Source: Cyanobacteria bacterium SIG32 (GTDB lineage: Bacteria > Cyanobacteriota > Vampirovibrionia > Gastranaerophilales > Gastranaerophilaceae). From it: a stretch of DNA of 35,611 bases. Both the position numbers and the translations under genes were made by a program. Below the pieces are notes generated by a model. It was not told where the DNA came from, ran no database searches, and saw only the letters and a list, made by a program, of their open reading frames with translations. The DNA is taken from the NCBI GenBank assembly GCA_015152455.1, contig SUTY01000007.1, forward strand, positions 1 to 35,611, written 5' to 3'. Every line of letters begins with the position of its first letter. The first letter of the stretch is position 1. Of the stretch, positions 13,814 to 29,779 are shown one piece after another.

Positions 13814-14558
13814 AGCCTTATTTAAACTAGCTCCTGCCCTTGCTATCAAATATTTTAAAAAGAAAAACAACAAGCTCTCTTGGGATTGGTACGAATTATG
13901 GCAAGATGCTCATCAAAAGTCATTCACAGTTGCTAAAGCTATGCGTGAAGATATTCTAAAAGACATTCGTTCTTCTTTAGATAAGGCATTGTCGGAAGGA
14001 AAAACTTTTAGAGATTTTCAAAAAGAGCTTAAACCAACCCTGCAAAAGAAAGGTTGGTGGGGCGAAGTTGTCATCGTTGATTCGCAAGGTGTTGCTGAAA
14101 AAGTTCAACTTGGTTCTATGTATCGTTTAAAAACTATTTATTCAGTTAATATGCAAGTTGCTTATCAAACAGGGAGATATAAGACTCAAGTTGATAATGT
14201 AGACAATCGTCCATATTGGCAATATGTCGCAGTTTTAGATTCAAAAACAAGACCTGAGCACGCACAACTGCATGGTTTAATTTTCCGGCATGATGATCCA
14301 TTTTGGAGTTCTTTTTACCCACCAAATGGTTGGAGGTGTAGATGTCGTGTTAATGCATTATCTGAAAGAAATATACAGAAAAAGAACGCTATTATTGATA
14401 ATTCTAATGGTAGATTATCCCAAGAAGAAAAACTTGTTTCAAAAAAATCGGGCGAATATAGACCAGTTACAGTTTATACAGACCCATTAACTAATAAAAA
14501 AATAGCTCCAGATGTTGGGTGGTCGCATAACCCTGCAAGTGGATTGGTAGATATTTAA
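13800..14558 (+). CDS. Mu F-like head morphogenesis protein
   Basis: A 252-residue protein of the phage Mu gpF-like (SPP1 gp7-like minor head protein) family. The C-terminal part carries YWQYVAVLDSKTRPEHAQLHG, then FWSSFYPPNGWRCRCRVNAL with the conserved Cys/His cluster, the standard signature. Mu gpF is about 430 residues; shorter versions like this one are common. Needed for capsid assembly or DNA ejection. Translationally coupled to the portal gene. Confidence 0.92.
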   Translation: MIQLKALFKLAPALAIKYFKKKNNKLSWDWYELWQDAHQKSFTVAKAMREDILKDIRSSLDKALSEGKTFRDFQKELKPTLQKKGWWGEVVIVDSQGVAEKVQLGSMYRLKTIYSVNMQVAYQTGRYKTQVDNVDNRPYWQYVAVLDSKTRPEHAQLHGLIFRHDDPFWSSFYPPNGWRCRCRVNALSERNIQKKNAIIDNSNGRLSQEEKLVSKKSGEYRPVTVYTDPLTNKKIAPDVGWSHNPASGLVDI

Positions 14559-14570
14559 AAGGCTTTTAAA
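14554..14570. other. 17-bp perfect palindrome before the methylase gene
   Basis: TTTAAAAG (14554-14561) and CTTTTAAA (14563-14570) flank a single central G. The palindrome spans the stop of the F-like gene and lies 24 bases before the methylase ATG, with a TTAAACG copy overlapping its end. It may be an operator or a weak RNA hairpin. Confidence 0.4.
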
Positions 14571-14593
14571 CGGAATTTAAAGGAGATTTACTT

Positions 14594-15409
14594 ATGACAA
14601 TAGATAAAAAATCATTGATTAATTGGGTTGGTGGCAAAAGATTATTGAGAAAAGTTATTGAACCACTAGTCCCTAAAGATATAAAATCATATATTGAGCC
14701 ATTTGGTGGTGGTGCTTGGGTTCTATTTTACAAAGAAAAATGGGCAGACCTTGAGATTTACAACGATTTAGATGGTAGGCTTGTAAACCTTTTTAGAGTT
14801 GTAAAATATCACCCCAATGCTTTTAAAGAAGAAATTAAATATCTTCTTGGTTCACGTGAGATGTTCTTACAATTCTTGAATGGCACATTTATTACAGATA
14901 TTCAAAGAGCTGTGCAATTCTATTTTCTAATCACACGTTCTTTTGGCGGTCGTGGCGAAACCTTTGGAACTGTTAAAAAATCTAGTGGTGGAGCAAGTAA
15001 ATCGCAAAAGAATGTATTAGAAAAAATTGATGCAATTCACAACAGACTTGATAAAGTAATGGTTGAAAATCGTGACTTTGAAAAGGTAATAACTCAATAT
15101 GACTTTGAAGATGCGTTTTTCTACTGTGATCCACCATACTCAAAAGGTTGTGGTTATGAAGTGACATCAACTGCAAACTTTGACCATGAAAGATTAAGAG
15201 AACTTCTTGGAAATATAAAAGGCAGATTTTTATTATCTTATGACGATTGCCCTAAAATCAGAGAACTTTACAAGGGGTTTGAAATGGTTGAAGTAGAACG
15301 CTTAAATGGAATCAATAATCGTCAGGGAACTAATCGAGAAAATAAGATGTTCAAAGAATTATTGATTGCAAATTATCCTATTAAAGAATTGTTTAATAAT
15401 GGCAAATAA
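14594..15409 (+). CDS. Dam-like adenine-N6 DNA methyltransferase (D12 class)
   Basis: A 271-residue alpha-group (D12/Dam type) adenine-N6 methylase. SAM-binding motif I is represented by INWVGGKRLLRKVI and YIEPFGGGAWVLF (residues about 9-50). The catalytic motif DPPY lies at about residue 180 (FFYCDPPYSK). No partner endonuclease is adjacent. The ATG has AGGAG upstream. Embedded between F- and G-like head genes, it probably modifies phage DNA late in infection to evade host restriction. Target sequence cannot be read from the protein, though GATC is common for the class. Confidence 0.9.
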   Translation: MTIDKKSLINWVGGKRLLRKVIEPLVPKDIKSYIEPFGGGAWVLFYKEKWADLEIYNDLDGRLVNLFRVVKYHPNAFKEEIKYLLGSREMFLQFLNGTFITDIQRAVQFYFLITRSFGGRGETFGTVKKSSGGASKSQKNVLEKIDAIHNRLDKVMVENRDFEKVITQYDFEDAFFYCDPPYSKGCGYEVTSTANFDHERLRELLGNIKGRFLLSYDDCPKIRELYKGFEMVEVERLNGINNRQGTNRENKMFKELLIANYPIKELFNNGK

Positions 15410-15848
15410 TCCAATAGAAATAAAAATCGATAATAAAGAAGTTACTCAAAAACTTCTTGAACTTGCTAGACGAGGCGAAAACCTGCGACCATTGATGAAA
15501 AATATCGCAGGAATTTTTGCATATTCAACTGAAGAAAACTTTGCAAATGAGGGCAGACCTGATAAGTGGCTTGATTTATCAGAAAAAACTAAAAAACAAC
15601 GCAAAAAGAGCGGTCATTGGCCGGGGCAAATTCTTCAAGTTGAAGGTCGACTTGCGGCATCAATAACAACTGCATACGACAATGAATCAGCTGTTATTGG
15701 TTCAAATCTTGATTATGCTGCTATCCATCAGCTTGGAGGTCAAGCCGGTAAAAACAAGAGTGTTTCAATCCCTGCAAGACCATATTTAAAACTAACAACC
15801 GATGATATGGAAGACATCATCGGTTGTATTGATAAATATTTGTTTTAG
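15399..15848 (+). CDS. Phage virion morphogenesis protein (Mu gpG-like)
   Basis: A 149-residue protein of the virion morphogenesis family (P2 gpS / Mu gpG). It has MKNIAGIFAYSTEENFANEG, WLDLSEKTKKQR and YAAIHQLGGQAG followed by IPARPYL, the strongest family signature. It acts in tail completion or head-tail joining. The ATG at 15399 (MANNPIEI) is preferred to an upstream in-frame start that lies inside the methylase gene. Last gene of the plus-strand head operon; it ends four bases from the convergent defence operon. Confidence 0.92.
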   Translation: MANNPIEIKIDNKEVTQKLLELARRGENLRPLMKNIAGIFAYSTEENFANEGRPDKWLDLSEKTKKQRKKSGHWPGQILQVEGRLAASITTAYDNESAVIGSNLDYAAIHQLGGQAGKNKSVSIPARPYLKLTTDDMEDIIGCIDKYLF

Positions 15849-15852: not shown

Positions 15853-16332
15853 TTATATCTCAATACCCATTTCATCTGTTAAAGAATTATCAGGTATATT
15901 TATCTCTTCAAGAAAAGCACTTAAATTCTTGAAAGTATCTGAACTTTTATCTAATAATTTTTCGTGTAATACTTCGACACCGCCTAATAAATAACTATAA
16001 AATAATTGCTCATCAGGTTTAGCTTCCTCTGTATCAATTGTCATAAAAGCCTTTTTTATTCTATCTTGCGAAGATTCGCAATGAGATTTATCGGCAAGCA
16101 ATAAAAGCTTATATATAAAATAAATGTCTTGCTGTCTTGGTGACAATTGACTTAAAAATATTGTTTTATTTTCTCCTGGATCATTGTCAGCTTTTCTTTT
16201 ATATATAAAACCTATCAATGGTGCAGTAACAAAAATTTGCCAAAGATATTCAAATAAACCACTTTGTTTAAGTTCTTCAGCCATAACTGCATGTTTACCT
16301 GTAAAATTAAAGTCTTTAGATACTAGTGGCAT
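15853..16332 (-). CDS. 159-aa protein of the defence operon, unknown
   Basis: A 159-residue acidic helical protein ending EMGIEI. It contains FEYLWQIFVTAPLIGFIYKRK, ending near residue 47, and a segment SPRQQDIYFIYKLLLLADKS. I recognise no catalytic motif. Its ATG, with GGAGATATCA before it, overlaps the 3' end of the SMC gene by 17 bases, so it is co-translated with that ATPase and is probably its partner, perhaps in the way DndE-like or SspFGH-type small subunits accompany larger ones. It is the last gene of the operon. Not DndE by sequence. Confidence 0.75.
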   Translation of the reverse strand: MPLVSKDFNFTGKHAVMAEELKQSGLFEYLWQIFVTAPLIGFIYKRKADNDPGENKTIFLSQLSPRQQDIYFIYKLLLLADKSHCESSQDRIKKAFMTIDTEEAKPDEQLFYSYLLGGVEVLHEKLLDKSSDTFKNLSAFLEEINIPDNSLTDEMGIEI

Positions 16333-18376
16333 TGATATCTCCTTCCTCTACTTTAGTTTCAAGAACATCTCTTTCGTTACCATCTAAAGTAGCAGCTTTC
16401 ATAGTGTAATATTTACCAATTTGATCTTTCATATGCTGCTTAATAAGATTACCTTCTAAATCTTTAGAGAAAATAATAATCTGCTCTGTTAGACCAGGTA
16501 ATTTTAAACAAGCTGCAGTAGTAGAAGCTTGGTCAAAAGCAGAAAATGGAGCATCTAAAACTAGTGGATAAGGCTCTGCAACAAGGAAGCCAGCTTCTGT
16601 TTTATCTTTTAATCTATTATAGTGTATTTGTTGTGCCAAATATAATACTGATGTAATAAACGCAAGAACGACAAAAACACTTTGAGCTCCTGAAGTATCA
16701 ATATCTTGCAAAGAGCCTGAGTTATCCGTTATTGATAAACGATATCTTTCATCTAAATGAATTCTATAACTGCTAGTAAATACTGATGAGAAAATTTCAT
16801 TCATTTTTTCTATCATCATATCTCTTAGTTCAGTTTCTTTTTCTGTAAGATGTGTTCTTAAAACTTTTGCAATATATTTTACGTGATTAATACAATCGTT
16901 TACATGTTTATTTGCTGAATCTTCTTGTGAAACTTTATCTAATTCTTTTTCTTTAGACTTAAATTCACTTTCATATTGAACATTTGCTGATTTTTTTGCA
17001 ATCATATTTCTATTTAGCATTTTAATTGTTTCTTCATTTTCAGCACGTTCAGTTTCAAATTTAGCAGTATCTTTTTGATCTTTTAATTCTTTCTTTAATG
17101 TATTAATCTTTTCATATGCTTCATCTATTTGCGTTTGCAATTGTAACTGCATTGTTTGGTACTGTTCAAAATGCAAAGGTAAGTCAGGAACAATACTTTT
17201 ATTGATTTTTTCCCTTGCTGTTGCTGCATATTCAGAAATTGTTGCACCTATATATTTTGGTGGAACATAATCCAACAGTTTTACCAAAGTGGAATGTTCT
17301 TCGCTTCCAATTTCTAATTTATGGCCACAAATGCACTCGCCTCTTTTTAATAGAAACTCAATAGTTTTGTTATTGACATTAGGAATATTTTTATCTTCAA
17401 TTTTTGTTTCTTTTAGCATTGATAGGACATCTGGAACAACATGTTGCAAGCAATATATAGGCAATTCTTTTGCAAAAGAAGCCAAATATTGGTTTTTATA
17501 ATTTTTTAATAGTGCTTCTTGAGAGTCAATTTTATTTTGTAATAAATCTAACTCTCTTTGTTTTTTTGCACCATCTTCCCATTTTTTTATTTCAGATGTT
17601 AGAAAAACATTTCTACTATTTAATTTTTGAATATCGAGTTCCGCTTTTTCAATATATTCATTATTCTTATCTATTGTTTTTCTTATTTCATCAAGTTTTT
17701 GTTGCAAACGTTCAATTTGGGCATTTGAATTGCCATTGTATTTTTTTTGGAATAAAGATTGTGTTGAATTTTGCTGTTCAACTAAATGCTTAATTGCATT
17801 TTCAATAGCTTGCATACCTAATATTTTTTTTACAGCTGACGAAAAATCTGTACTAGCAATTTTTTCTTGAACATTTTTGCCCATTGTATTAATTTGCTCT
17901 GCTTTCATGAAGAAATAGTCAGCAAGATCTTGAGGAATAATTAAATTTAATAAATCTTGAACTTTTGATTCATCAACACCTTTAGTTAAACCCGTTTCTG
18001 GATCTTTATAAGTAATATATAGGTTTGTTGAACCAACATCTAATTTAGGTTTACCATATAAAGTTTCATTGTTTATATAAGTCAACACTCTTTTTACACA
18101 ATAATCTTGTTTACCATATTGCAATTCAACTTCAACTTCAACATTAACTGATTCTCGAGGTTTTAAATTATATTGCACTTTTCTGTTTAAAAGAACCCCA
18201 TTAGTCAAACCGGCATTACCGAATAAACACCAAGTAAAAGCACTTGCCAATGTTGTTTTACCGGTATAATTGTTTGCTAAAACAAATGTAACTTTCTTTT
18301 CTTTGTCAGTAGAAAAAATAATTTCTGTATCAATAAACTGTCTAAAGTTTTTTAATTTAATAGATTTTAATAACAT
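16316..18376 (-). CDS. DndD-like SMC/Rad50-type ATPase
   Basis: A 686-residue ABC-type ATPase with Rad50/SMC layout. The N-terminal AAA_23-like half has KNFRQFIDTEIIF and a Walker A variant ANNYTGKTT (residues 34-42, first Gly replaced by Ala). Long coiled coils (about 205-300 and 390-480) flank a hook GECICGHKL (346-354). The C-terminal half has ABC signature TSGAQSVFVVLAF and Walker B PLVLDAPFSAFD. It resembles DndD of phosphorothioation systems and related restriction ATPases. In this operon it is probably part of the restriction (SspFGH-like) module or a DNA-gating ATPase; which letter it corresponds to I cannot say. Confidence 0.85.
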   Translation of the reverse strand: MLLKSIKLKNFRQFIDTEIIFSTDKEKKVTFVLANNYTGKTTLASAFTWCLFGNAGLTNGVLLNRKVQYNLKPRESVNVEVEVELQYGKQDYCVKRVLTYINNETLYGKPKLDVGSTNLYITYKDPETGLTKGVDESKVQDLLNLIIPQDLADYFFMKAEQINTMGKNVQEKIASTDFSSAVKKILGMQAIENAIKHLVEQQNSTQSLFQKKYNGNSNAQIERLQQKLDEIRKTIDKNNEYIEKAELDIQKLNSRNVFLTSEIKKWEDGAKKQRELDLLQNKIDSQEALLKNYKNQYLASFAKELPIYCLQHVVPDVLSMLKETKIEDKNIPNVNNKTIEFLLKRGECICGHKLEIGSEEHSTLVKLLDYVPPKYIGATISEYAATAREKINKSIVPDLPLHFEQYQTMQLQLQTQIDEAYEKINTLKKELKDQKDTAKFETERAENEETIKMLNRNMIAKKSANVQYESEFKSKEKELDKVSQEDSANKHVNDCINHVKYIAKVLRTHLTEKETELRDMMIEKMNEIFSSVFTSSYRIHLDERYRLSITDNSGSLQDIDTSGAQSVFVVLAFITSVLYLAQQIHYNRLKDKTEAGFLVAEPYPLVLDAPFSAFDQASTTAACLKLPGLTEQIIIFSKDLEGNLIKQHMKDQIGKYYTMKAATLDGNERDVLETKVEEGDINATSI

Positions 18377-18570
18377 TATGACAACCTCTCGATTATTCCA
18401 TAAATTTTCCTAGCCATTTCAGCATCAGAATCTTTATTTGTTCTATTAATATTATCTTTTTCAATTTTTAAAATTTGATCGCACATTTGTTTGCGTTTAT
18501 CACGAATGCGTGTAGCTTCGTCTTCTTCGACAGGAATATCGATTTTTTCGCAGTTTTCATTTACTTCCAT
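18376..18570 (-). CDS. 64-aa charged protein of the defence operon
   Basis: A 64-residue, highly charged helical protein (IPVEEDEATRIRDKRKQM, DAEMARKIYGIIERL). The ATG at 18568-18570 has AAGGAG eight bases upstream and is preferred to a TTG nine bases earlier. Its stop overlaps the SMC gene start (TAATG). No family recognised. Small adaptor subunits between a helicase and an SMC-type ATPase are known in multi-gene restriction systems; that role is inference. Confidence 0.7.
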   Translation of the reverse strand: MEVNENCEKIDIPVEEDEATRIRDKRKQMCDQILKIEKDNINRTNKDSDAEMARKIYGIIERLS

Positions 18571-18588
18571 TGGCAACACTCCTTATTT

Positions 18589-20790
18589 TTATAAAATATC
18601 ACAAAAATTTTGTTCATCATACAAATGATATGAATTTATTAATTCCCAGATTAAATTTTCATTATTATCTGTGCTATTGATTGCTAATTTATTAAATTCT
18701 TTCATTCTGTCAAATTCACGCCTTACAAGACCTTGCTCATACTGTTGCTCATACTCTGTTAAGCTATATGTAGCATCTACAGGACGAGGCAATGTAATAA
18801 AATCATATATTTCTGCATATTCTTTGCCTTCTGAAAGTCTTAAAACTCGTCCTCTGCGTTGAATATATTCTTTAGGATTCGTTGTGCTAGCTAGAATAAA
18901 TGCTGTTTTAATTTCTGGAATATTAAAACCTTCATCTAAACACTTAATAGCAACTAGAGCCTGCAACATATCACCTCTTGCAAATAACTTTTTAATTGAA
19001 GTTCGTTCTTTCATATCTTCTTGAGATGTAAATTGTGCGACCTTCATGTTTAGTTCGTTTCCTAACATTTTGCAGACTGCGTTAATTTGTCTTATAGATT
19101 CTTTTTCATCTGAATTAGAATTATCATTATCAGGAGCGTCAATTGTTGTTGCTCCACAATATACTAACAAATGGTTCTTGTTTTTATAATTTGTAATTTG
19201 CTCTCTTAATGCTTCTAATTTATTTTCTGCCCCTGCAATTAAGCGAGCTCTTTTTAATAAATATGGTTTAGCTGCTTCAGGAATTTCATTACGATCATTC
19301 CCGACAAGAAATTTTGCTATTGTTTTTGACAATAATTTATATTTTTCTAATTCATCAGGAGTTAAATACACCAAAACGGGATAGTAATAGTATTGAGTTA
19401 GCATCCCTGCCTCAATAGCCATTTCTAAAGTATATTCAATACATTTATCACCAAAATATTCAAAGAGAAATTCTGTTCCTTCTTTGTCTCCATGTCGATT
19501 TATTGTTGCTGATAAAGCAAGTCTATAATCAAAATGTTCTGGCAATATCTTTCTTATGTTGTTAGAACCAAAATAATGGGCCTCATCAACAAGTAATAAG
19601 GATTTGTTGTCTAATTTTTTAATCTGTTCTTTTACAAAATCGGATGAAAAAGTTGCATTTGTAGTTATAAAACAAAAAAATTTCTTACCTTCAATTTTTT
19701 TATTATGACATTCAACCGCTCTTTCTAATCTGGTCTTCCAATTCTTTTGTGCAGAGCTGCCATAACCAATAATGGGTTCAATATTGTATTTAATTAAATC
19801 TTCAACCCATTGCTCTACAAGATGAATAAAAGGGCAACAAATAATCACAGCTAAATCAGAATTGCAATAATTATATAAATCAACTACAGCTCCAAGTCCG
19901 GTGTATGTTTTACCAGTACCTGTAGCCATATCAAAAATACCTTTATAATTTTGTTTTCCCCATTCACTAATTGCTTGTTCTTGGTAATCTCTCAATTTAT
20001 CAAATGGGAGCTTTGGTACGTTATTGTTTGAAATAAAACATTCTAAATTATCAATATTAACAAATTCATTATTGGCATTAATTGAACTTTCAATAACTTT
20101 TTTTTCTTCTTCGTCAATATTTTTGTTGTAACTTTCTTTTTTATAAGTTTGTAATTTTTCAATTGCAACAGCAGAAAAATCTATAACATCTAAACTTTCA
20201 GTTAGATTTGCCCAAGTTTCGTCAAAGTAATGCCTTTTATCTGAAATTCTATCTGGTTCATTCCAAGAGGTATAAGCATCGATAGATTCAAAATTTAAAT
20301 TTATAGCCTGTTCACTTTCGTTGAGAGACCCTGTAAAAGCAACACTATTCCCTTCTTCATCTGTTAAAATACCAATTTTTTCGTGGTATAAGCCATAAGG
20401 CTTTTTAAATGCTATTTTTATATCTAAGTGACCAGATTCGATTAAATGAGAAAGAAAATTTAGGCGTTCTTCTTCAATATGATTTTTAGGTTCTTTCCAC
20501 TCACGCATAATTGCTTCATCGATAATTTTTCTTCTATCGTAGCCATCTTTAATAGCTTGTATATCTTGTTCTTGTAATCGAGGTGAAGTAATCAAACGCA
20601 TCTTACCACCATTATTTACTAGATTAATTAAACCTCTTGAAAGTTCAATTAAAACAGAAGAAGAGAAAAAACCAACAGCTCGATCATAGCTTTTTGCTCT
20701 ACTTAATAATGGAATATAGAACTCTTGAACTATTTTATCTGGAGTTCTATAAGATTTTTTTATTTGATTTTTTATTTCAAGAAATGTCAT
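18589..20790 (-). CDS. PLD-nuclease/SF2 helicase fusion
   Basis: A 733-residue protein from the ATG at 20790. Residues about 20-200 form a phospholipase D-like domain with HEKIGILTD (136-144) and FTGSLNESE (152-160), one HKD-type half-site. Residues 260-733 form a superfamily 2 helicase: Walker A MATGTGKT (288-295), DEAH (402-405), SAT motif ALSATINRH, and motifs V/VI in DEGFNIPEIKTAFILAS and QRRGRVLR. Such fusions are restriction effectors that translocate on and cut DNA. Start choice: AGGTGG, overlapping the sspA stop, precedes this ATG; a GTG at 20811 lies inside sspA. Likely a subunit of an SspFGH-like restriction module. Confidence 0.88.
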   Translation of the reverse strand: MTFLEIKNQIKKSYRTPDKIVQEFYIPLLSRAKSYDRAVGFFSSSVLIELSRGLINLVNNGGKMRLITSPRLQEQDIQAIKDGYDRRKIIDEAIMREWKEPKNHIEEERLNFLSHLIESGHLDIKIAFKKPYGLYHEKIGILTDEEGNSVAFTGSLNESEQAINLNFESIDAYTSWNEPDRISDKRHYFDETWANLTESLDVIDFSAVAIEKLQTYKKESYNKNIDEEEKKVIESSINANNEFVNIDNLECFISNNNVPKLPFDKLRDYQEQAISEWGKQNYKGIFDMATGTGKTYTGLGAVVDLYNYCNSDLAVIICCPFIHLVEQWVEDLIKYNIEPIIGYGSSAQKNWKTRLERAVECHNKKIEGKKFFCFITTNATFSSDFVKEQIKKLDNKSLLLVDEAHYFGSNNIRKILPEHFDYRLALSATINRHGDKEGTEFLFEYFGDKCIEYTLEMAIEAGMLTQYYYYPVLVYLTPDELEKYKLLSKTIAKFLVGNDRNEIPEAAKPYLLKRARLIAGAENKLEALREQITNYKNKNHLLVYCGATTIDAPDNDNSNSDEKESIRQINAVCKMLGNELNMKVAQFTSQEDMKERTSIKKLFARGDMLQALVAIKCLDEGFNIPEIKTAFILASTTNPKEYIQRRGRVLRLSEGKEYAEIYDFITLPRPVDATYSLTEYEQQYEQGLVRREFDRMKEFNKLAINSTDNNENLIWELINSYHLYDEQNFCDIL

Positions 20791-20797
20791 TTTCCAC

Positions 20798-21943
20798 CTA
20801 TGAATTATCACTTATGTATTCAAGCACATTATCTAAGTGTTCCAAATCATTACTATTAGTAAAATAACTTATACTAAACCTTACAGTACCTGTTGGAAAA
20901 GTATTCATAAACCTATGCGAATCAGGTGCACAATGCAAGCCTGTTCTAACTGCAATGTCTTGTTCACTTAGAATGATACCTATATTCTCGCATGGATATC
21001 CGTCAAATACGGACGATATAATTCCAACCTGTTCTAAATTCGGATGTATAAATGTTTTTATATTTAAATACTTGTTTAATATATCGAACAATTTATTAAA
21101 ATTTTCTTTTTCTTTTTTGTATATGTTCTCAATGCCAATTTTATTAATCCACTTCATTGAAGCATTAAGACCGGCAATAGCCATAATATTTGGACTACCT
21201 GCTTCTAACCTTTCAGGTATCGGTTTTGGCATACTTAAATTAGATGAATCAATACCAGTTCCTCCATATATAAAAGGTTTTAAATTGTCATTTTTGTTTA
21301 TTAAAAAGCCAGCTATACCAAGTGGTGCATATAATGTTTTATGCCCTGCAAAAATTAAATAATCTATATTAGAATCAATATTAACTTGAATTAGACCGGC
21401 TGTTTGCGACATATCTACAACAGTTTTAGCTCCATATTGATGTGCAATCTCGCTAACTTCTTTTATTGGAAAAATAAAACCAAATGAATTGCTTGCGTGA
21501 TTTAAAATAACCATCTTTGGTTTATCTTGTGAAATCTGAGTTTTAATTGTTTTTAAATCATATTTTAATGTGTTTTTATCAGGCTCTAAATATTTAATAA
21601 TTATTTTGTAATCTTCAGCAATCTTATTTAAGGTGCGAAGAACTGCATTATGCTCAAACTTCGTAATATAAACAATTTCGCCAGCTTTCCAGGTTTGACC
21701 GAATAAAATGGTATTCATTGATATTGTTGCAGATGGAGTAAAAACAACCTCATAATTAGCATTCGCATTAAAGAGATTTAACATCAAATCTCTTGTTTCT
21801 CTTACTAAATTGGCAGACATAGAAGCTTCTTTATATTGCCCCCTGGAAACATTTACTCCAAAATCACGATAAAACGTGTTCATAAAATTATGAACTTCTT
21901 CTGGTTTTGGAAATGTTGTAGCAGCATTATCAAAATAAAACAT
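20798..21943 (-). CDS. sspA: Cysteine desulfurase of the phosphorothioation system
   Basis: A 381-residue class V PLP-dependent aminotransferase-fold enzyme. Key residues are His98 (KFEHNA), Asp177 (VVDMSQTAG), the PLP lysine Lys202 (FAGHKTLYAP) and the sulfur-carrying Cys338 (RTGLHCAPDSHR). It takes sulfur from L-cysteine as an enzyme persulfide. In dnd and ssp clusters this enzyme (DndA/SspA) supplies sulfur for DNA backbone modification. The gene abuts the end of sspC with no gap and is followed seven bases later by the helicase gene, so its role here is well supported by context. By sequence alone it could also serve Fe-S cluster assembly. Confidence 0.88.
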   Translation of the reverse strand: MFYFDNAATTFPKPEEVHNFMNTFYRDFGVNVSRGQYKEASMSANLVRETRDLMLNLFNANANYEVVFTPSATISMNTILFGQTWKAGEIVYITKFEHNAVLRTLNKIAEDYKIIIKYLEPDKNTLKYDLKTIKTQISQDKPKMVILNHASNSFGFIFPIKEVSEIAHQYGAKTVVDMSQTAGLIQVNIDSNIDYLIFAGHKTLYAPLGIAGFLINKNDNLKPFIYGGTGIDSSNLSMPKPIPERLEAGSPNIMAIAGLNASMKWINKIGIENIYKKEKENFNKLFDILNKYLNIKTFIHPNLEQVGIISSVFDGYPCENIGIILSEQDIAVRTGLHCAPDSHRFMNTFPTGTVRFSISYFTNSNDLEHLDNVLEYISDNS

Positions 21944-24900
21944 CTATATTAATACCTTCTGAATTATATCTACTAAAACTTGTCTTTTTTCTTCTGAAGT
22001 TAATGATTCTCCATATTCTTGCATCATTGCTTCTGCATCATTATAAAGCAATTTAGCTTGTGAAGAATATTCCATTTTTTTGAAAGTTTTGAAACTTTCA
22101 ATACCAGATGCATCGGTATAACTGATTTTATAGAATTCCTTTGTTACATTATCAGAAGACAAGCTGTCATTATAAAATTCTATGTTTTCTTTGAATTTTT
22201 TAATAGTGATATTATATGAATCGATTGTGATATTATCCCAATCGTCTATTCTTAAACCAGTATTAGTTCTAGCAAATGTTTCAACAAATTGAGAAGTATC
22301 TGCTGTTGGATTTGAACACAATTTTAGCATTTGCTCTTCGCTACTGCTAAATGCGTGGTTCAATACACTCTTATTTAATTGCTCAACCCAATCTCTCATT
22401 ACTGATGATAAAGATGCTTTGCTATTAAGATTATCAGTTGCAAACATAATTTTCATTTCAACAGCTAGTGTTTTAATTAGATTATCCTTAACATTATCTA
22501 AGTAATTCTTTGCAGATATAATATCTTTTTCGAGATATGTAGAAAACCCATTATAACCGAATATCTCAGGCAATTTATTAAATAAAAATTCTCTAGCATT
22601 AATTTCGGGAGTTTTTAATGCATTCTTAAATTTTAGAATTTTCTTATCTAGCGGTTTATAGTTTTCTTTGCTTGCATATTCAGAATTCATTTCTTTTGTG
22701 TATTTAGGTAATTGAAAGAACCATCTTTGCATTGCTCTTACAACAAATTCAAAATTGTTGTATTCAGTTTCATCTTCATGAACATACTCTGCAAATGTAT
22801 TTTTTAAATTAACAATATAATTTTCTTTTTGCCCATCCCATTCTTCTAATGCTATGTAGAAATTTTCTGGTTCTTCATTTATGCTATCTAAAAGTTTAGC
22901 ATTTATTTCTACTTCTTTATTATTTTTAAGAATAACAGCATATTTTTTATAATGGTGTAAAACGCAAGCCATATAAATCGGTATTAACCCAGATTTCATA
23001 CCGATGTGATGTTGTGGCTCTGTTAATTGAGCATAAAGCTCATCAAAACATAACTGTTTTTCAGAAGATTTTAAAATAAAATCTTTAATTATATTAATAA
23101 CATTTTGCAATTTTTTATTTTGCAAATTTTCAATGTTAATGTAATAATTACTGCCATTTTCAACTAATATGCCTTCATTTTTTATTGTACTTCTCATAAA
23201 GCTAACATCTTGCCCTGAAGCAATTAGACCCAAGTTCTCTTTTATATGGCTTTCTAATAACCCTGCAACAACTTTACCTCTGCTATTTATAGCTTGACTC
23301 GATAAAGTATTTTTATTCAAGACCTCATTGTTAATTATAGGATAGTCGCAATAAGTTTTTTCGCATATTTCTGAAAGCTTTTTAGATAAAGCTGAACGTC
23401 TAGTAATATGTTCTTCTTTACCATTGCAATAATATTTTGATTGATTTAGCTCCGGTTTAAGATAAATATCAACAAAATCTGATATAACATCAGAAAGTGC
23501 ATTTAAAGAATATGATAATTCTTCTGATAAAATTTCATCATCTGTATTATCAATCAAGTATTTTATTGCATCGTATTTTATTATCTGCTCATTTATATTG
23601 AAACGTTTCTTTGGCACTACAAATAATATACGTTCGTTGTCATTGCTTTTATAAGATTCTTTAAATAAAATCTTTTTATCTGAACTTGTTTTAGGTATAA
23701 CTGCATATACTATACCATCTGCACCATCAGATTTTATTATTTGTTCCCAATCTTCAATTCCATTTAGTTCTTCTTGGTTCACAAATTTAAAACTAAAGTA
23801 TCTTATTACTTCATTGCTGTCATTATAAGCATTTGGATATAAAACTTTGTTACCTACGAAGTTATTAAGAATATCTTTTATTTCAACGGTATTTTTGCGT
23901 TTTTCAATTGCATCATTAATTTTAGCCTCAACATTAACATCAGTATGTTCGGTAATTCTTAATTGATTTCTATTTTCCAATTGTCTTAAAATGCCTTTAT
24001 CGATTAGATTTGTTAATGCCTGAGACAATATTTTAGTATCTTTAACAATGTTTTCATAAATTGCAAAAATCATATCTACAGTCGGCGATAATAATTCAAA
24101 GTGATCATAGATATAAATCAATGCAATTGTTTTAATTATTTTCTTCTCTAAAACTTCCTCTTTTGAAAGTTTATTTATAGCAACATAAGCGTTTTTCCAA
24201 TATTTGTGTGTCGCTTTTGTGTAATTTTCAGTTTTAAATAGTGGTTCAAAATAATCAAAAATATAATCAGGTGTTAATAAAGGAAATTCCAAATCATTGT
24301 CTTTTAAGAATGCATATAAAGTATTCTTTTGATTTCTCGAAGATAAAAATGTAAATATTGTTCTTTCGTTTTGAGCAATTTTTTCAGAAATATTTGGAAG
24401 TAAAAATGTTGTAATTGATTGTAATGGATAACATCCAAATACAATGTTTTTAATATCTCTGTCTTCAAGGCTAGAAAATACTTTTGACCCTTGCCATTTT
24501 TCTAATATGCTATTAAATAATTTATCATTGTCTTTCTGATAATTTTTAAACCATTTTTCATCTTGGCAAATAATTTTTGACATCAAATCAAATTGCTGTG
24601 GCAAAGATGTATTAAATTCAAGAGTTTTAAATCTATTTGAAACAGCTTTCCAGGCATCAATTTTATTTTTTGGTAGTTTATCTACATAATTTAAAATACT
24701 TTGATGTGATATTAATAAAATGTGTATTTGCTGTTCTTTTGTTCTGCAACAATTTTCTGCAAAATCTTGCAAAGTTTTAATTTCAGCCGCAGATGTTTTA
24801 TCTAAATTTCCTTCTAAAAATTTACTGAATTCATCATAAATAACAAAAATACCGGTGTAACCCTCTTTTTTGATTGATTTATTAACAGAATTGTATAATT

Positions 24901-25585
24901 CTATTACATCAATATTTGAAATAGGATTAAATTCACTACCTGCTGTTAGATTAGGATAAATTTCTTTGAAGTTTTCATAATAATCGATATTAAAATTTTC
25001 CAATTCTGAAATGTAATTTTTAACATTGCAATCAATTAATTTTTGGAATTGCTTATATGTTTCAGCATAATTTTTTTGCCAATTTAAAATTGTAGTAATA
25101 GCTGATTTAAAATAAGTATCAGGCATAACGTGATCCAAATTAGCATTTTTAAGTGCTATATTTAAGCCAGACATTAATGCTTGTCTTATGCCGACGCTAC
25201 TGCCCTGAATAATAACAGGCAACATTTTTTTAGGACTTTCAAGATAATTCTTTGTATATGTGCAAAGTGCAGACTCCCCTTTTGAATTTTGTGTACTTTG
25301 ACATATCATAGACAATAAATTTGAAAATAATCCAGGTTCTTTTCTAAATAACAAAGATGCTATAATTAAAGCAAGATGTGATTTCCCTTTACCATATGCC
25401 CCAACAAAAATTTTAGCTCTGTCGTTTGTTGTGTTTGAAGTGCTTAACATTATATCTTCAATAATTTCGATAGCACTTGGTGTAGGTATATAATTTTTAA
25501 TTTTGTCATCACTATACAAATCATATCCAATGTTTATTGCATATTGAAAATCTTGCATTATGTCTATGTTTTTAGTTAAATCCAT
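21944..25585 (-). CDS. sspC: SspC-like P-loop ATPase of the phosphorothioation system
   Basis: A 1213-residue P-loop ATPase. Walker A is GAYGKGKS (62-69) in IFVGAYGKGKSHLAL; Walker B is FVIYDEFSKF (about 247-256). The rest is mostly helical without other motifs I can name, with a C-terminal region about 900-1213. Large ATPases of this type follow DUF4007 genes in ssp clusters (SspC) and also occur in BREX-like systems (BrxC/PglY); the neighbours favour SspC. It probably couples ATP hydrolysis to the nicking and sulfur insertion steps. Strongly AT-rich coding, with AAAGGAC before the ATG, 12 bases after sspB. Confidence 0.82.
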   Translation of the reverse strand: MDLTKNIDIMQDFQYAINIGYDLYSDDKIKNYIPTPSAIEIIEDIMLSTSNTTNDRAKIFVGAYGKGKSHLALIIASLLFRKEPGLFSNLLSMICQSTQNSKGESALCTYTKNYLESPKKMLPVIIQGSSVGIRQALMSGLNIALKNANLDHVMPDTYFKSAITTILNWQKNYAETYKQFQKLIDCNVKNYISELENFNIDYYENFKEIYPNLTAGSEFNPISNIDVIELYNSVNKSIKKEGYTGIFVIYDEFSKFLEGNLDKTSAAEIKTLQDFAENCCRTKEQQIHILLISHQSILNYVDKLPKNKIDAWKAVSNRFKTLEFNTSLPQQFDLMSKIICQDEKWFKNYQKDNDKLFNSILEKWQGSKVFSSLEDRDIKNIVFGCYPLQSITTFLLPNISEKIAQNERTIFTFLSSRNQKNTLYAFLKDNDLEFPLLTPDYIFDYFEPLFKTENYTKATHKYWKNAYVAINKLSKEEVLEKKIIKTIALIYIYDHFELLSPTVDMIFAIYENIVKDTKILSQALTNLIDKGILRQLENRNQLRITEHTDVNVEAKINDAIEKRKNTVEIKDILNNFVGNKVLYPNAYNDSNEVIRYFSFKFVNQEELNGIEDWEQIIKSDGADGIVYAVIPKTSSDKKILFKESYKSNDNERILFVVPKKRFNINEQIIKYDAIKYLIDNTDDEILSEELSYSLNALSDVISDFVDIYLKPELNQSKYYCNGKEEHITRRSALSKKLSEICEKTYCDYPIINNEVLNKNTLSSQAINSRGKVVAGLLESHIKENLGLIASGQDVSFMRSTIKNEGILVENGSNYYINIENLQNKKLQNVINIIKDFILKSSEKQLCFDELYAQLTEPQHHIGMKSGLIPIYMACVLHHYKKYAVILKNNKEVEINAKLLDSINEEPENFYIALEEWDGQKENYIVNLKNTFAEYVHEDETEYNNFEFVVRAMQRWFFQLPKYTKEMNSEYASKENYKPLDKKILKFKNALKTPEINAREFLFNKLPEIFGYNGFSTYLEKDIISAKNYLDNVKDNLIKTLAVEMKIMFATDNLNSKASLSSVMRDWVEQLNKSVLNHAFSSSEEQMLKLCSNPTADTSQFVETFARTNTGLRIDDWDNITIDSYNITIKKFKENIEFYNDSLSSDNVTKEFYKISYTDASGIESFKTFKKMEYSSQAKLLYNDAEAMMQEYGESLTSEEKRQVLVDIIQKVLI

Positions 25586-25597
25586 CTTCTTTGTCCT

Positions 25598-26479
25598 TTA
25601 GTTATTCAAATTTTCATAATATTTTTTTACACAATCAATAAATGTCATTTCTGTTTGCAACTTGATAATATCAAGGCCAGCTGCTCTTACGACCTTTATA
25701 TAACCAAGTTTTTGTAAATTATCTAAATGTTCAGCGATCTGAATATTGTTTAAGTTAAAGATTCGACCTAAATTACAAGGATCTTTTTCGATTTTAGATA
25801 TTTTTATATCTGTAGCTTTTTCTTTTTCATTCTCTTTGATAATTATAGCCAGTGCAATCAAAGGATTAATTGTCGCAAAACTAGGTGCTACCTTGGCATA
25901 TATCTTATTTTTTTTGTCGATCAATTTTATTAATCCTAATTCAGTAAGTGGCGATTCAATATTACTTTCGGGGTTAGAATTGCCATCGGATGCTCTATAA
26001 TATGTTTTGATAATACAATCAAAATCATCTTCTAATAGCCTTTCAGAAACTTGATATTCAGAATCTTGGATGCTGATATAAGATTTAATATCATTTATGA
26101 ATGATTCTTTTGTTATTTCATTCATATTGTAAGTATTGAAAAAATAATGCCAAGCTGTAGCTTGTTCAAAGTTAGAGGCTAACAAATAATGAAGAATGCA
26201 ATAAGTGCCATCTTCTTCCATGAATAAATCATTATTCCATATTAACTTTCCTAATTCAGTAAATTCTTGTTTTTTTGTTGTCGCACCAGTCTCAATCGTC
26301 AATCCAAAAGCCTGCAACCAATAACGAAGAGCCTTGACCATGTTTGAACCGATTCCAAGTTCATCCATTGGATTAATATTTTTATCAACAAACAAACGTG
26401 GATTTTTTAGAATGTGTTTCATCCCTTTATGTAACCAACCTTTTCTTATTGCAAAGGTATCATGTGCTCTAAATTTCAT
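25598..26479 (-). CDS. sspB: SspB-like DUF4007 protein
   Basis: A 293-residue DUF4007 protein. The N-terminus HDTFAIRKGWLHKGMKHI and the segment DELGIGSNMVKALRYWLQAFG are the family signature, and helix-rich winged-helix-like regions follow. In single-strand phosphorothioation systems SspB is the DUF4007 member and nicks DNA at the site to be modified; that function is taken from the family. The ATG overlaps the sspD stop (ATGA), so the two are translationally coupled. Confidence 0.85.
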   Translation of the reverse strand: MKFRAHDTFAIRKGWLHKGMKHILKNPRLFVDKNINPMDELGIGSNMVKALRYWLQAFGLTIETGATTKKQEFTELGKLIWNNDLFMEEDGTYCILHYLLASNFEQATAWHYFFNTYNMNEITKESFINDIKSYISIQDSEYQVSERLLEDDFDCIIKTYYRASDGNSNPESNIESPLTELGLIKLIDKKNKIYAKVAPSFATINPLIALAIIIKENEKEKATDIKISKIEKDPCNLGRIFNLNNIQIAEHLDNLQKLGYIKVVRAAGLDIIKLQTEMTFIDCVKKYYENLNN

Positions 26480-28263
26480 TGTTGTTCTCCCGTATTACTC
26501 GCTTTTGTTACTAAATATCCTGCCATTAAACAACCACCTTCAAGATATTTTGCAGTAACACACATTTTGCATCGTTTGCATTTATCTGAATTAATTTTAT
26601 AAGTATTTTGATTTACTGTAATTGCACCAAATTTACATACAGATTCACATTTTAAACATTTCCTACAACTATTGTATTTTCGTACTTGATACCCGATCAT
26701 TCGTTGCAAATCATCATGTTTCTCAATATTCATTGTTTTGATTTTAATAGCATACTCATAATTTTGTTGTTGAAAAGGTTGCAGAGAAATAATTGGTACA
26801 TTTGTTGCCAAATCCAAAACAATAACTTCTTTTAATAATTTTCTACCTAGTTCTTTAGAAACTTTTCCAAATGGTGTAAATAGAGTGTAAAAATCATCTT
26901 CTAAAGGTTTATTTAATTGATAAATTTTCGCATTTTCTTCTGCAGTACAATTACTGTATTTGATTTTTACATCTTCAGCTGCTTTTAAACCATTTCCACC
27001 TTGTCTAGCTTTCCATTTTCCTGTATCCACATAAACTTCTGCATCAGGCTTCCCAATTTTTTCTGCAAAGTGTACTAAAAAATCTCTCCATTTTTTAGCC
27101 TCATCAGGCATATATATTTTTGACAAAAAGGCTGCTCTATCATTATTATTTGGGCAACACCAACAGCCAACCCTATCATACCCAAGTTTATATGCATCAT
27201 TAAAATCGACATTTTCTCCTAACATATAAAGCCAAATATCAATATCTTTCCAATAAAATATAGGCGATGCTACTACTTGCTTTTTAATCTTAATAGCCTC
27301 CGCATTGTCTTCAATACGATTGTATTTGCTTCTACTAACAGATTCACATTTTCTGATTCCATAAAAGGTTAATAATTTTTTATCCCTATAAAGATTGGTT
27401 AAAATTCTTGTGATAGGGCCTGTTTTAAACATCGTGCAGCACCACCGCATAACTCTAGAAGGTGGCCCAATATCCTCGCAAACATTATAAAATTCTTGAT
27501 CTCTATTTTTTGAAGTTTTTAATATAATTTTAGGGTTATTTTTTCTGAAACGTTCAATATACTGATATGTTAAAGGAAATTCTAAAGTTGTATCGCCAAA
27601 GATATGAACTAATCCAGGATTACTTAATGCTCTTACTACTAAATCCGCTACAACTGTTGAATCCTTTCCGCCTGAAAATGATATGACGATATTTTCTGGA
27701 GGATAATTTTTGACAGAATCTTGTACAAATTGAAAAGCTTCGTCTTTTAAGTAAGCGAGTCTCTCCTTATTCGCAAGTATAAATTTATCTGCATACTTAC
27801 TAAAGCTGTTATCTTTATTCGCTTCTTTATATTTATCAAGCTCTTCTCGTATAGTTTCTATGTCTAATTCTAAACATTTTGAAAATGAAACAGTAATGGT
27901 TTCTCCGTTTACATAATAACGATTATTAACACACCATACTGAATCGTTTTTGTATTTAAGTGGTGTCTTTTTTATAATTTCTAATAATAATCTTTCTTCA
28001 GGGAAAACAGGTCTTAAATCTGTGCTTAAATATTTTGTTTTATTTTTACAATGAGGGCATGTATTTGAAGTGTTATTAGATAGTTGAATAATTGGTACAT
28101 TGCAAGATTTACACCAGTATATTTCTACCGGAATGTCTTCAACTGTAACCTCTCCACATACTTCACATATTTTATTATCTGTCTTTCTATTACAAGATTT
28201 GCACCACAAAATACATACCTCTTTGGCGGAGAAATTTTTTTTAATTGTTCTCCAATATGACAT
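26476..28263 (-). CDS. sspD: SspD-like PAPS-reductase-fold sulfurtransferase
   Basis: A 595-residue protein from the ATG at 28263; a TTG 18 bases earlier is the alternative, and neither has a clear ribosome site. The N-terminus holds two zinc-ribbon-like Cys pairs sets (Cys21/24/33/36 and 51/54/69/72). The centre is a PAPS-reductase/ATP-pyrophosphatase domain with PP-loop SFSGGKDST (about 195-203), MRWCCTMFKTGP and GCWCCPNNND, whose Cys residues likely hold an Fe-S cluster as in DndC. The C-terminus is ferredoxin-like (CRKCLKCESVC and CKRCKMC). It activates the DNA backbone and inserts sulfur. Archaeal-type architecture, longer than DndC. First gene of the operon. Confidence 0.86.
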   Translation of the reverse strand: MSYWRTIKKNFSAKEVCILWCKSCNRKTDNKICEVCGEVTVEDIPVEIYWCKSCNVPIIQLSNNTSNTCPHCKNKTKYLSTDLRPVFPEERLLLEIIKKTPLKYKNDSVWCVNNRYYVNGETITVSFSKCLELDIETIREELDKYKEANKDNSFSKYADKFILANKERLAYLKDEAFQFVQDSVKNYPPENIVISFSGGKDSTVVADLVVRALSNPGLVHIFGDTTLEFPLTYQYIERFRKNNPKIILKTSKNRDQEFYNVCEDIGPPSRVMRWCCTMFKTGPITRILTNLYRDKKLLTFYGIRKCESVSRSKYNRIEDNAEAIKIKKQVVASPIFYWKDIDIWLYMLGENVDFNDAYKLGYDRVGCWCCPNNNDRAAFLSKIYMPDEAKKWRDFLVHFAEKIGKPDAEVYVDTGKWKARQGGNGLKAAEDVKIKYSNCTAEENAKIYQLNKPLEDDFYTLFTPFGKVSKELGRKLLKEVIVLDLATNVPIISLQPFQQQNYEYAIKIKTMNIEKHDDLQRMIGYQVRKYNSCRKCLKCESVCKFGAITVNQNTYKINSDKCKRCKMCVTAKYLEGGCLMAGYLVTKASNTGEQQ

Positions 28264-28292
28264 CAAGTTTAGCACAAACAATTCAAAAAATC

Positions 28293-28323: not shown

Positions 28324-28719
28324 TTAATAAGAATACAAGTTTAAAAAATCTTTCCTGAATCGTCCTACATAACGATTTAAATAGCCGATTAGCCTTTTAT
28401 AATTTTCAGGAAACTTTGAATGACCTTCATAACGAACGTATTTCCCATTCGAAAGTCTTATTCTTAAATACCACAGAGTTCCATCACAAATTGTGTAATC
28501 CCAATAATATTTGTGTTTCCAATCTTTAATTATTTCAAAAATTTGTCTTGAAAACTTTTCATTATCTTTCACCTTTATGAATGGAGAAATCCCCCCTGCA
28601 TAGAAACTATAATGGATTTGCCCTTTGTTATTTTTAAATTTATATTCATAAACCTCTTCGGGCCACCCGTAGCCATATTCACTAAATAATAAACTTGTAA
28701 TATAAACACTTTCATTCAT
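28324..28719 (-). CDS. 131-aa protein of unknown function
   Basis: A 131-residue protein rich in aromatic residues (SEYGYGWPEEVYEYKF, WKHKYYWDYTICDGTLWYL). Beta-strand-rich in the first 110 residues with a basic helical C-terminus (RRKDFLNLYSY-like, from GRFRKDF). No family recognised. The ATG at 28717-28719 with AGAGGTG upstream is preferred to a GTG nine bases earlier. Its promoter carries copy A of the shared 21-bp dyad, with a TATATT box 8 bases beyond it. It reads toward the ssp operon 60 bases downstream and may be co-transcribed with it. Confidence 0.7.
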   Translation of the reverse strand: MNESVYITSLLFSEYGYGWPEEVYEYKFKNNKGQIHYSFYAGGISPFIKVKDNEKFSRQIFEIIKDWKHKYYWDYTICDGTLWYLRIRLSNGKYVRYEGHSKFPENYKRLIGYLNRYVGRFRKDFLNLYSY

Positions 28720-28739
28720 GTTTTGCACCTCTTGAATTT

Positions 28740-28774
28740 AATATAATTGTTTGATGTGTCAAAAATGGTCGTAA
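28740..28774 (-). promoter_or_regulatory. Shared dyad promoter, copy A
   Basis: Dyad ATGTGTC (28754-28760), 7-base spacer AAAAATG, GTCGTAA (28768-28774). On the minus strand a TATATT box (28745-28740) lies 8 bases beyond the dyad, and the 131-aa gene starts about 20 bases later. The same dyad and spacing recur at copies B, C and D. It also sits 40 bases upstream of the divergent WYL gene. Confidence 0.6.
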
Positions 28775-28813: not shown

Positions 28814-29779
28814 ATGGCAGAAGATAAACCAAGATATTCGAGAGTTTCAGACATTTTAGATTTAGCTGTTTTTATGTCATCAAGGATTCAAGGAATAACA
28901 ATTACAGATATAATTGAACGCTATAATGTTTCTAGAAGAACAGCAGAAAGAATGCGAGACAGTTTGACCTGCATATTTCCATCAATAGACGAAATAGAGA
29001 CTGATGATAATCAAAAGCATTGGGGGTTTACGAATTATTCAATTTCAAATCTAATTACATTCTCTCCAAAGGAGCTTGCAAATATAGAACAACTGCAAAG
29101 AAGAACAACAAATAAAGAGATGAAGGAAGAACTTGGGAAGACAGTTGAAAAGATAAAAGTTCTTGCACGTAATAACTTGAATTCAGTTGAAAATAATATT
29201 GAACTTTTTATGCAAACAGAAGGTTATGCTGTTCGACAAATGCCTCAATATAAGATTAGTTTAACTGTTGTTGAACTTATAAGAGAAGCCCTGCAACACT
29301 CTAAAATGGTCTCCGGGATCTATCACGATAAAGAAAGATTAATTGAACCATTAGGTTTGATTTATGGAGAAAAGATTTATTTGGTAGCAAGGGAAAAAGC
29401 TAAAGGAAATGATATTTATACATTCTTATTGCATAAATTTAATGATTTAAAATTAACAGATGAACATTTTGATAAAGGAGATTTTAACCTGCAAGATTAC
29501 ACTAATTTATCTTTTGGTGTTTATCATGGAGAGGTTTTAAATGTTGAATTACTTTTTGATAAAACACTTTCGCAGGAAGCAAGCCAATACAATTTCCATC
29601 CAACACAAACAGGAAAATTTAATAACGATGGCTCTTATACTTTAAAATTCAAGGCAAGTGGTAGCAAAGAAATAATGTGGCACGTTTTTAAATGGGGAGC
29701 CGGCTGTAAAATTATAAAGCCTGCAAGTTTAAATAAGCAATATAAAGAATACCTTTCAAAAGTTTTAAATAATCAATAA
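28814..29779 (+). CDS. WYL-domain transcriptional regulator
   Basis: A 321-residue regulator. The N-terminal helix-turn-helix (ITITDIIERYNVSRRTAERM, about 24-45) is followed by a linker and a WYL domain (about 150-215, with SGIYHDKERLIEPLGLIYG and KIYLVAREK), then a C-terminal WCX-like extension. WYL proteins often control defence islands (BrxR/CapW-like) by sensing nucleic acids or nucleotides. The ATG is preceded by GGGAGAG. It lies divergent from the 131-aa gene, with dyad copy A between, and dyad copy D directly follows it. It is a candidate regulator of the ssp operon and of the dyad regulon. Confidence 0.88.
   Translation: MAEDKPRYSRVSDILDLAVFMSSRIQGITITDIIERYNVSRRTAERMRDSLTCIFPSIDEIETDDNQKHWGFTNYSISNLITFSPKELANIEQLQRRTTNKEMKEELGKTVEKIKVLARNNLNSVENNIELFMQTEGYAVRQMPQYKISLTVVELIREALQHSKMVSGIYHDKERLIEPLGLIYGEKIYLVAREKAKGNDIYTFLLHKFNDLKLTDEHFDKGDFNLQDYTNLSFGVYHGEVLNVELLFDKTLSQEASQYNFHPTQTGKFNNDGSYTLKFKASGSKEIMWHVFKWGAGCKIIKPASLNKQYKEYLSKVLNNQ

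Follow-up and report, generated by a model that had tools for sequence, protein, structure and literature searches.

What kind of system do the eight closely packed genes at positions 15853-28281 of contig SUTY01000007.1 encode, and do they belong to the host or to the phage whose genes surround them? The contig comes from the genome of Cyanobacteria bacterium SIG32 (GCA_015152455.1), and the whole stretch analysed, 35,611 nucleotides long, is called the window below. In our view, the locus encodes a complete defence system based on phosphorothioate, SspDBCA-PbeABCD, and serves as exchangeable cargo of a Mu-like phage of Gastranaerophilales; we give this reading a probability of about 0.8.

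Genes of the operon

The coordinates of the open reading frames (ORFs) show that 15853-28281 is filled by eight ORFs, all on the minus strand, with junctions ranging from a 17-base overlap to an 18-base gap. They agree with the initial annotation, which had described eight minus-strand genes with overlaps or gaps of at most 18 bases. The order along the direction of transcription is SspD, SspB, SspC, SspA, PbeA, PbeB, PbeC and PbeD. SspB overlaps SspD by 4 bases, SspC follows SspB after a gap of 12 bases, and SspA follows SspC with no gap. Depending on the start codon taken, PbeA overlaps SspA by 14 bases or lies 7 bases from it, and PbeB lies 9 or 18 bases from PbeA. The computed overlaps of PbeC with PbeB and of PbeD with PbeC are 1 and 17 bases, respectively.

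Their profile matches identify the first four genes as a phosphorothioation set of the Ssp type, in which SspD is closest to BrxP of the type 4 bacteriophage exclusion (BREX) system. SspD (26476-28281) is a BrxP-like sulfurtransferase of the PAPS-reductase fold, 601 amino acids (aa) long when read from a TTG codon; its first inner ATG, at 28263, was the end of the operon in the initial annotation. It matched, with E-values in parentheses here and for the other genes, Pfam PAPS_reduct (3.5e-32) and Fer4 and the PADLOC models BrxP (7.3e-83) and SspD (2.9e-15), and it carries zinc-ribbon cysteines, an SGGKDS PP-loop and C-terminal 4Fe-4S cysteines. SspB (25598-26479) is a DUF4007 DNA-binding protein (Pfam DUF4007, 2e-81; PADLOC SspB, 1.6e-56), and SspC (21944-25585) is a BrxC-like P-loop ATPase of 1213 aa with Walker A and B motifs (PADLOC SspC, 3.3e-123; BrxC, 4.3e-37). 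SspA (20798-21943) is a cysteine desulfurase (Pfam Aminotran_5, 3.4e-77; TIGR01977, 1.8e-121) with K202 as the lysine for pyridoxal phosphate and C338 as the catalytic cysteine.

By the same kind of evidence, the last four genes are PbeABCD, that is, an HKD nuclease-helicase, a small protein, a CxC ABC ATPase and a DndE-fold protein. PbeA (18589-20811) joins an HKD (PLD-like) nuclease to an SF2 helicase and matched PADLOC PbeA at 1.7e-238, together with Pfam PLDc_2, ResIII and Helicase_C. PbeC (16316-18376) is an ABC ATPase with a CxC hook, C348-I-C350 (PADLOC PbeC, 4e-91). PbeB (18376-18579), 64 aa from an ATG, the inner start taken in the initial annotation, or 67 aa from a GTG, gave no family match above the cut-off in the profile searches of the operon proteins and is named from its position and size. 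An ORF 70% identical to it occupies the same position in another locus (L027). PbeD (15853-16332; 159 aa) was assigned to the DndE fold by structure comparison; its Foldseek E-values (0.44 and 0.6) are not significant alone, and the assignment follows from the VIA Z and from DndE alone standing above all other candidates. The family matches of SspB, SspC, PbeA and PbeC, judged by their scores, leave no room for chance.

We scanned GTDB genomes with an alignment of PbeA and examined the best 80 of 527 relatives; these are the nearest to the window and its kin, and the set is hence biased. Fifty-one loci possess SspA to SspD together with PbeA, PbeC and PbeD: 47 of the 80 PbeA loci, one further genome (G054), the window, and two unverified fecal scaffolds (MT835493 and MT835506). 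In all 51, SspA retains K202 and C338, SspD its PP-loop core and Fe-S cysteines, SspC the core residues of Walker A and B, PbeC both cysteines of the hook, and PbeA its H143, K145, D409, E410 and H412, the GSxN and DExH motifs included. The zinc-ribbon cysteines of SspD are kept in 45-49 of the 51, and a small ORF lies between PbeA and PbeC in 43, at least one of which (L095) looks like a wrong frame. The window has every invariant core residue, and therefore there is no sign in the sequence that the operon is dead. These results indicate that the eight-gene operon is real and that its genes look intact.

Modification genes and type 4 BREX

The initial annotation had named the first four genes SspD, SspB, SspC and SspA, and the profiles, together with the catalytic residues kept in SspA, SspC and SspD, bear this out. 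Nevertheless, SspD prefers the BrxP model to the SspD model by far. A possible, if unlikely, explanation is that the operon derives from type 4 BREX, with its BrxP, DUF4007, BrxC and desulfurase set retained and PglZ and BrxL swapped for the Pbe genes. According to PMC12839542, type 4 BREX has the same set of sulfur genes, that is, a BrxP-like reductase with an Fe-S region, a BrxC-like ATPase, DUF4007 and a cysteine desulfurase (the last in 56% of taxa), and some SspD proteins share the same Fe-S arrangement. Against such a descent, SspC scores far better with the SspC model than with BrxC, DUF4007 is a separate gene in the window and is not fused to the reductase, and neither PglZ nor BrxL was found among the profile-searched operon and flanking proteins, which take in part of the small ORFs of the window. 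Modification genes of the DndC or DndD type were likewise absent from the operon in the profile searches. The BREX derivation and the Ssp reading that we favour differ mostly in descent and name.

Pairing of Ssp and Pbe in other genomes

The published partners of PbeABCD are Dnd or methylation, and those of SspABCD are SspE or SspFGH. Among the best 80 of 527 PbeA relatives, however, SspB or SspC stood beside PbeA in 68 loci, Dnd only in one, and neither Ssp nor Dnd in 11. In nine of these 11 the contig stops within 2.7 kb on the upstream side; L084 and L096 are the other two. A weak DndB-like match was also present in 6 of the 68 Ssp-paired loci. Many Bacillota and other taxa from the gut carry the pair; Faecalibacterium prausnitzii, Mitsuokella multacida and Ruminococcus albus are examples. 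Because such named species are among them, the pairing is testable in cultured strains.

As a more even sample, we drew 398 genomes from the phylum of Faecalibacterium prausnitzii; at least 5 of the PbeA-bearing genomes in this draw also belong to the 80-locus set. It held 22 near-full PbeA genes, of which 11 had both SspB and SspC in the stretch fetched, 2 had Dnd and 9 had neither. SspC occurred in 28 of the 398 genomes, with PbeA at most 10 kb away in 12. SspC and PbeA co-occurred in 14 genomes (Fisher p 1e-12, with 23 PbeA counted, namely the 22 and one broken), in two of which they lay far apart (33 and about 150 kb).

In all 51 full loci the seven genes followed share one strand, and SspA and PbeA are within 100 nt of each other in 42. 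Protein distances in these loci correlated at 0.91-0.97 within Ssp and at 0.90-0.94 within Pbe, and at 0.28-0.43 between the two blocks. That is, Ssp and Pbe are two blocks that evolve separately and are re-paired. The re-pairing is directly apparent in the host family, where pieces of SspC were 71-84% identical in three relatives, and PbeC was 65% identical in one and about 35% identical in two others. A tree of PbeA with 102 rows has a branch (support 99) of 90 rows, of which 78 have Ssp, 11 none and 1 Dnd; the tree was made by a quick method and has long branches, so its details are unsure.

The literature on PbeABCD, Ssp and DUF4007, including the accessible parts of PMC6459918, PMC8092258, PMC10853773, PMC12839542, PMC11931770 and PMC8713573 and with subscription papers and preprints outside the scope, did not report this pairing. 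The operon is thus a hybrid of two known half-systems, and the pairing recurs widely and is undescribed in the literature searched.

Two further features of these loci were observed. Directly upstream of PbeA, the loci L034 (5100-8708), L035 (3882-7283) and L033 (17752-19791) encode a large protein that contains Sigma70 region 4 and, in two of them, also an RNA polymerase alpha C-terminal domain. Copies of Ssp-Pbe outside this phage (L028 and L031/L032, from genomes G089 and G116, both of the host family) lie beside genes resembling Mu-transposase-C/TnsB, and L028 also has TnsC-like and Gabija GajA genes.

Proposed action

We infer from the gene content the following order of events. SspA would draw sulfur from cysteine, and SspD would hand it to the DNA backbone at sites located by SspB and SspC, so that host and resident phage DNA would both be marked with sulfur. 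Marks of an Ssp set would be single-stranded phosphorothioates, at CCA or another motif. PbeC and PbeD, the ABC ATPase and its DndE-fold partner, would then survey DNA, and PbeA would use its helicase and HKD nuclease to block or cut DNA free of the mark, perhaps restrained by PbeB. By analogy with the archaeal DndCDEA-PbeABCD system (PMC6459918), cells without marks probably have an inactive effector. The lysogen would resist other phages, and virions grown in it would leave already marked.

In that archaeal system, PbeABCD did no harm when marks were lacking, and virus bearing them escaped (PMC6459918). Harmless unmarked Pbe would therefore suit a phage that enters naive cells, because the effector would stay quiet until marks were made and the progeny would be marked. 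It is plausible that the phage provides its host with a defence and carries the marks itself; the initial annotation had supposed the former, with the phage either modified or exempt.

The cluster may act differently, through suicide of the cell or through a block of replication that leaves DNA intact; in that case, PbeA would damage self DNA once an invader removed or altered PbeB. PMC10853773 offers a suicide-type action as one option for CxC systems, and PMC6459918 describes a replication block without degradation of viral DNA. The HKD and helicase residues that are invariant in the 51 loci fit cleavage of self DNA and of invader DNA alike. We regard such an action as doubtful.

The Mu-like phage and its exchangeable slot

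The window spans an entire contig of a draft genome of 1.7 Mb and has no recognised host flanks. On its left, the plus-strand genes at 10498-15848 encode a terminase, a Mu portal protein (Portal_Mu, 2.1e-104), MuF, a D12 adenine methyltransferase and a neck protein (phrog_26) whose gene ends 4 bases before PbeD. The genes for the phage protease, major head, adaptor, sheath, tape measure and tail proteins lie on the minus strand at 87-9790. The head operon is accordingly split at 9790-10498, with protease to tail on the minus strand and terminase to neck on the plus strand. Such a split differs from classical Mu. On the right, 33766-35609 is a flank common to related Mu-like phages, with ORF162, HTH93, the Mor-like ORF104 (3.6e-4, weaker than the Pfam cut-off), ORF78 and GemA (7e-12). 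MuA and MuB were not seen in the window, which stops inside GemA. In the related genome G197, GemA is followed by an AAA gene of MuB size and by MuA (DDE_2, a Mu transposase by Pfam), and in G196 by ORFs of MuB/MuA-like size and start.

A search with the window portal gave 35 IMG/VR contigs and matches in 22 of 118 genomes, including its own. One contig, L116 (IMGVR_UViG_3300031555_010650), is identical to window 2377-15848 over 13,472 bases with zero mismatches; its end coincides exactly with the stop codon of the neck gene, which is the cargo edge. Assemblers produce such ends at variable junctions, but this one may also be due to chance.

In G196 and G197, the same place has other cargo, followed by ORF142, ORF162, ORF104, ORF78, GemA and the genes of MuB and MuA size. 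The slot is therefore inside the phage, because phage genes flank the other cargo on both sides. Together with the Mu portal, MuF and GemA around the operon itself, this upholds the placement in a Mu-like phage that the initial annotation had given. We compared 24 such slots, consisting of the window, 11 IMG/VR contigs and 12 portal places in related genomes, each reaching at least about 2.6 kb past the neck gene; loci on contigs ending earlier and two distant phages (L147 and L150) were left out. Ten of the 24, the window included, hold restriction-type systems. The cargo is Ssp-Pbe in the window; DndB-C-D with PbeA-C-D and a divergent WYL gene in G125:C168 (L033 and L151); PbeC and PbeD with an end of PbeA at the contig edge in G124; type III in G196 and G202; IIG in G197; and type I in L144. 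By BLAST to the other slot systems, G127 and G057 have type III and G128 has type I. The ten cases are not all independent events: the ORF lengths of G127 match those of G057 as a set, and L144 and G128 carry type I enzymes that are 93% identical.

In 8 of the 24 slots, a 180-aa ORF directly follows the neck gene. It is a recombinase of the phage-integrase family according to Pfam in L117, BLAST in G067, G012 and G033, and inspection by eye in the other four, and some of these slots continue with genes that look, by eye, like surface-sugar genes. The remaining 6 are unassigned, one of them with a polysaccharide export protein.

An alternative that we consider quite improbable is that the operon is a passive passenger, a chromosomal defence island misassembled beside phage genes. 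The operon has a lower GC content (0.25-0.31) than the head genes (0.32-0.38), but that of the right flank of the phage is just as low (0.27-0.32). Three related cassettes lie outside this phage, two of which neighbour Tn7-like genes, and the promoter element described below is also present in the host and therefore no longer ties the operon to the phage. What speaks against a misassembled island is that the same slot carries cargo in related phages and that phage genes stand on both sides of it in G196 and G197.

Two observations touch the variability of these phages. In L133 (5330-7669), the neck gene is followed by a partial SspC-like gene and an SspD-like gene of the PAPS-reductase type, perhaps the remnant of another sulfur system. 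A second variable place, between portal and MuF, contains DNA-modification genes in L122, L131, L134, L141, L166, L202, L206, L208 and L209. They encode PAPS-reductase-like proteins, C5 cytosine methylase and N4/N6-type methylases (families by Pfam in L131, L166 and L202); in the window, the portal and MuF genes overlap and this place is empty.

Upstream region and promoter element

A 134-aa ORF at 28324-28728 on the minus strand is the first gene of the likely transcript and the ninth on the same strand; no relative of it occurred among the loci compared. Divergent from the operon, at 28814-29779 on the plus strand, is a regulator with helix-turn-helix (HTH), WYL and WCX domains (Pfam WCX/WYL). 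Its relatives, 37-42% identical, are divergent from the cargo at the same place in G125, G202 and G128. Further on, the window encodes two tandem-repeat proteins (30148-30576 and 31674-32060) that look secreted by eye, and relatives of the former occur near defence cargo in L030, L031, L160 and L161.

Facing the operon at 28757-28771 (minus strand) is a promoter element, CGACCATTTTTGACA, of the TGTC-N7-GACA dyad type, with TATATT 11 nt downstream. A second copy (32652-32666, minus strand) precedes the ORFs 32060-32617 and 31674-32060, and a third, weaker copy lies at 34279. The consensus, TGTCC-N-W-TTTTGACAT, recurs in these phages. In 722 kb of phage loci, some of which overlap, 11 sites match it with no more than one mismatch, whereas five first-order Markov simulations led us to expect 1.8. 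When two mismatches are allowed, the core is barely enriched (60 sites, 42 expected). Four sites had first been noticed by eye, and 7 of the best 11 are outside that set. Ten of the 11 are intergenic, and in 9 a TATAAT-like box is fixed 11 nt away, the two without the box facing WYL genes. In G125, G202 and G128, the element faces the WYL gene and not the cargo.

In its own genome, the sole exact match to the 15-base core is in the window, and up to one mismatch there are 10 matches against 7 for a reversed control. When the core was combined with the -10-like box (at most three mismatches), the reversed control gave 5 matches and the genome 9, of which 3 are in the window and 6 elsewhere. Five of the latter 6 are clustered beside apparently chromosomal genes, 2 on contig C50 and 3 on C67 (G000:C50:24131-26138 and G000:C67:14061-19629; L229 and L230). 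One copy on C67 stands before a gene for a UvrD-like helicase, identified by eye from the N-terminal part, beside genes that look, also by eye, like cas9 and cas1. A shorter pattern of 13 bases also matches non-phage loci, some of them inside SspA genes. The idea that the element is specific to the phage was rejected on account of the copies at host places. Because host copies exist, the element may serve a host factor, perhaps of the SOS or stress type, and the clustered copies are possibly a host stress or SOS regulon. As the -10-like box is only 11 nt downstream, the TTGACA within the element is unlikely to be an ordinary -35 box. The location of the element at the -35 position suggests a candidate site for a regulator, perhaps a host factor.

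Weight and meaning of the reading

Several points weigh against the reading of the locus as an Ssp-Pbe defence cargo. The much stronger match of SspD to BrxP has been described. In the even draw, 9 of the 22 PbeA genes lack both Ssp and Dnd in their neighbourhood, so Pbe also operates with other partners, in line with publications, and the low correlation between the blocks means that the halves do not strictly co-evolve. The dependence of PbeABCD on phosphorothioate was shown for Dnd-type marks in archaea, and sulfur marking of DNA and phage resistance are here predicted from sequence. Fourteen of the 24 slots have no recognised restriction system. The pair also seems rare in viruses: scanning IMG/VR with the PbeA alignment gave four relatives, only one of them over most of the protein (29% identity), and scanning it with the single SspC protein gave none. 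MT835493 and MT835506, which are phage records containing Ssp-Pbe, were not counted as phages, being unverified and unannotated fecal scaffolds; MT835506 (L153) has a PbeA almost identical to that of a Clostridia metagenome-assembled genome (L100) and also contains an ABC transporter gene.

Taken comprehensively, we lean towards the view that SspABCD-PbeABCD is a third, widespread form of Ssp-based immunity in which one Pbe lineage is specialised on Ssp-type marks. The Mu-like phages of Gastranaerophilales would run it from one exchangeable slot, like other modification-restriction systems, with the lysogen defending its host and the phage DNA leaving pre-marked. PMC8092258 counts 2,211 of 2,678 sspBCD loci with neither sspFGH nor sspE. 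Given the pairing, one may ask if a single effector family recognises sulfur marks of both the double-stranded (Dnd) and the single-stranded (Ssp) kind. Moreover, the phage slot shows that whole self/non-self systems are swapped within one phage family.

Comparison with known systems

Defence cargo hotspots exist in P2/P4-like and other phages. The slot resembles those hotspots as an exchangeable defence locus borne by a phage; here, by contrast, the phage belongs to a Mu-like family of Gastranaerophilales and the defence cargos are whole modification-restriction systems. A search of the literature on Mu-like defence hotspots and on Mu phages of Gastranaerophilales found nothing matching among the articles listed.

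With SspABCD-SspE, reportedly described in Nat. Microbiol. in 2020, the operon shares the modification genes SspA to SspD, but SspE was not seen and the effector is PbeABCD. The same modification genes are shared with SspABCD-SspFGH (PMC8092258, mBio 2021), a three-gene effector module whose SspH resembles FtsK-type translocases. The initial annotation had read the last four genes as an SspFGH-like module with extra small subunits, which the Ssp-type modification half and the established role of SspFGH as its partner would favour; we give this next to no probability, because at the level of gene identity it is refuted by the profile matches of PbeA and PbeC, the CxC hook and the DndE fold of the 159-aa protein, and no FtsK-like translocase was seen among the effector genes with a library not confirmed to contain SspF, SspG and SspH models. 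Thus, from the profile searches against Ssp, Dnd and BREX models that the initial annotation had proposed, its naming of the 1213-aa ATPase as SspC and of the modification half as Ssp stands, and the effector half is Pbe and not SspFGH. The supposed extra subunits are ordinary parts of PbeABCD, whose small genes encode 66 and 152 aa in PMC6459918.

The CxC ABC ATPase-DndE systems of PMC10853773 likewise possess a CxC hook ATPase with a DndE cognate, an HKD-SF2 helicase and a small disordered protein. There, in contrast, they occur with Dnd, with methylases or alone, and the accessible part of the article does not mention pairing with Ssp. Solitary and methylase-linked Pbe have also been published (PMC6459918), and DndCDEA is therefore a common partner of Pbe and not a defining need. 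In the DndCDEA-PbeABCD system of Haloterrigena jeotgali A29 (Xiong 2019, PMC6459918), the marks come from DndCDEA at GATC, whereas the operon in the window has an Ssp-type set without DndC or DndD; in the effector half, PbeA, PbeB, PbeC and PbeD of the two systems have the same order, domain types and sizes, with small genes of 66 and 152 aa there and of 64 and 159 aa here.

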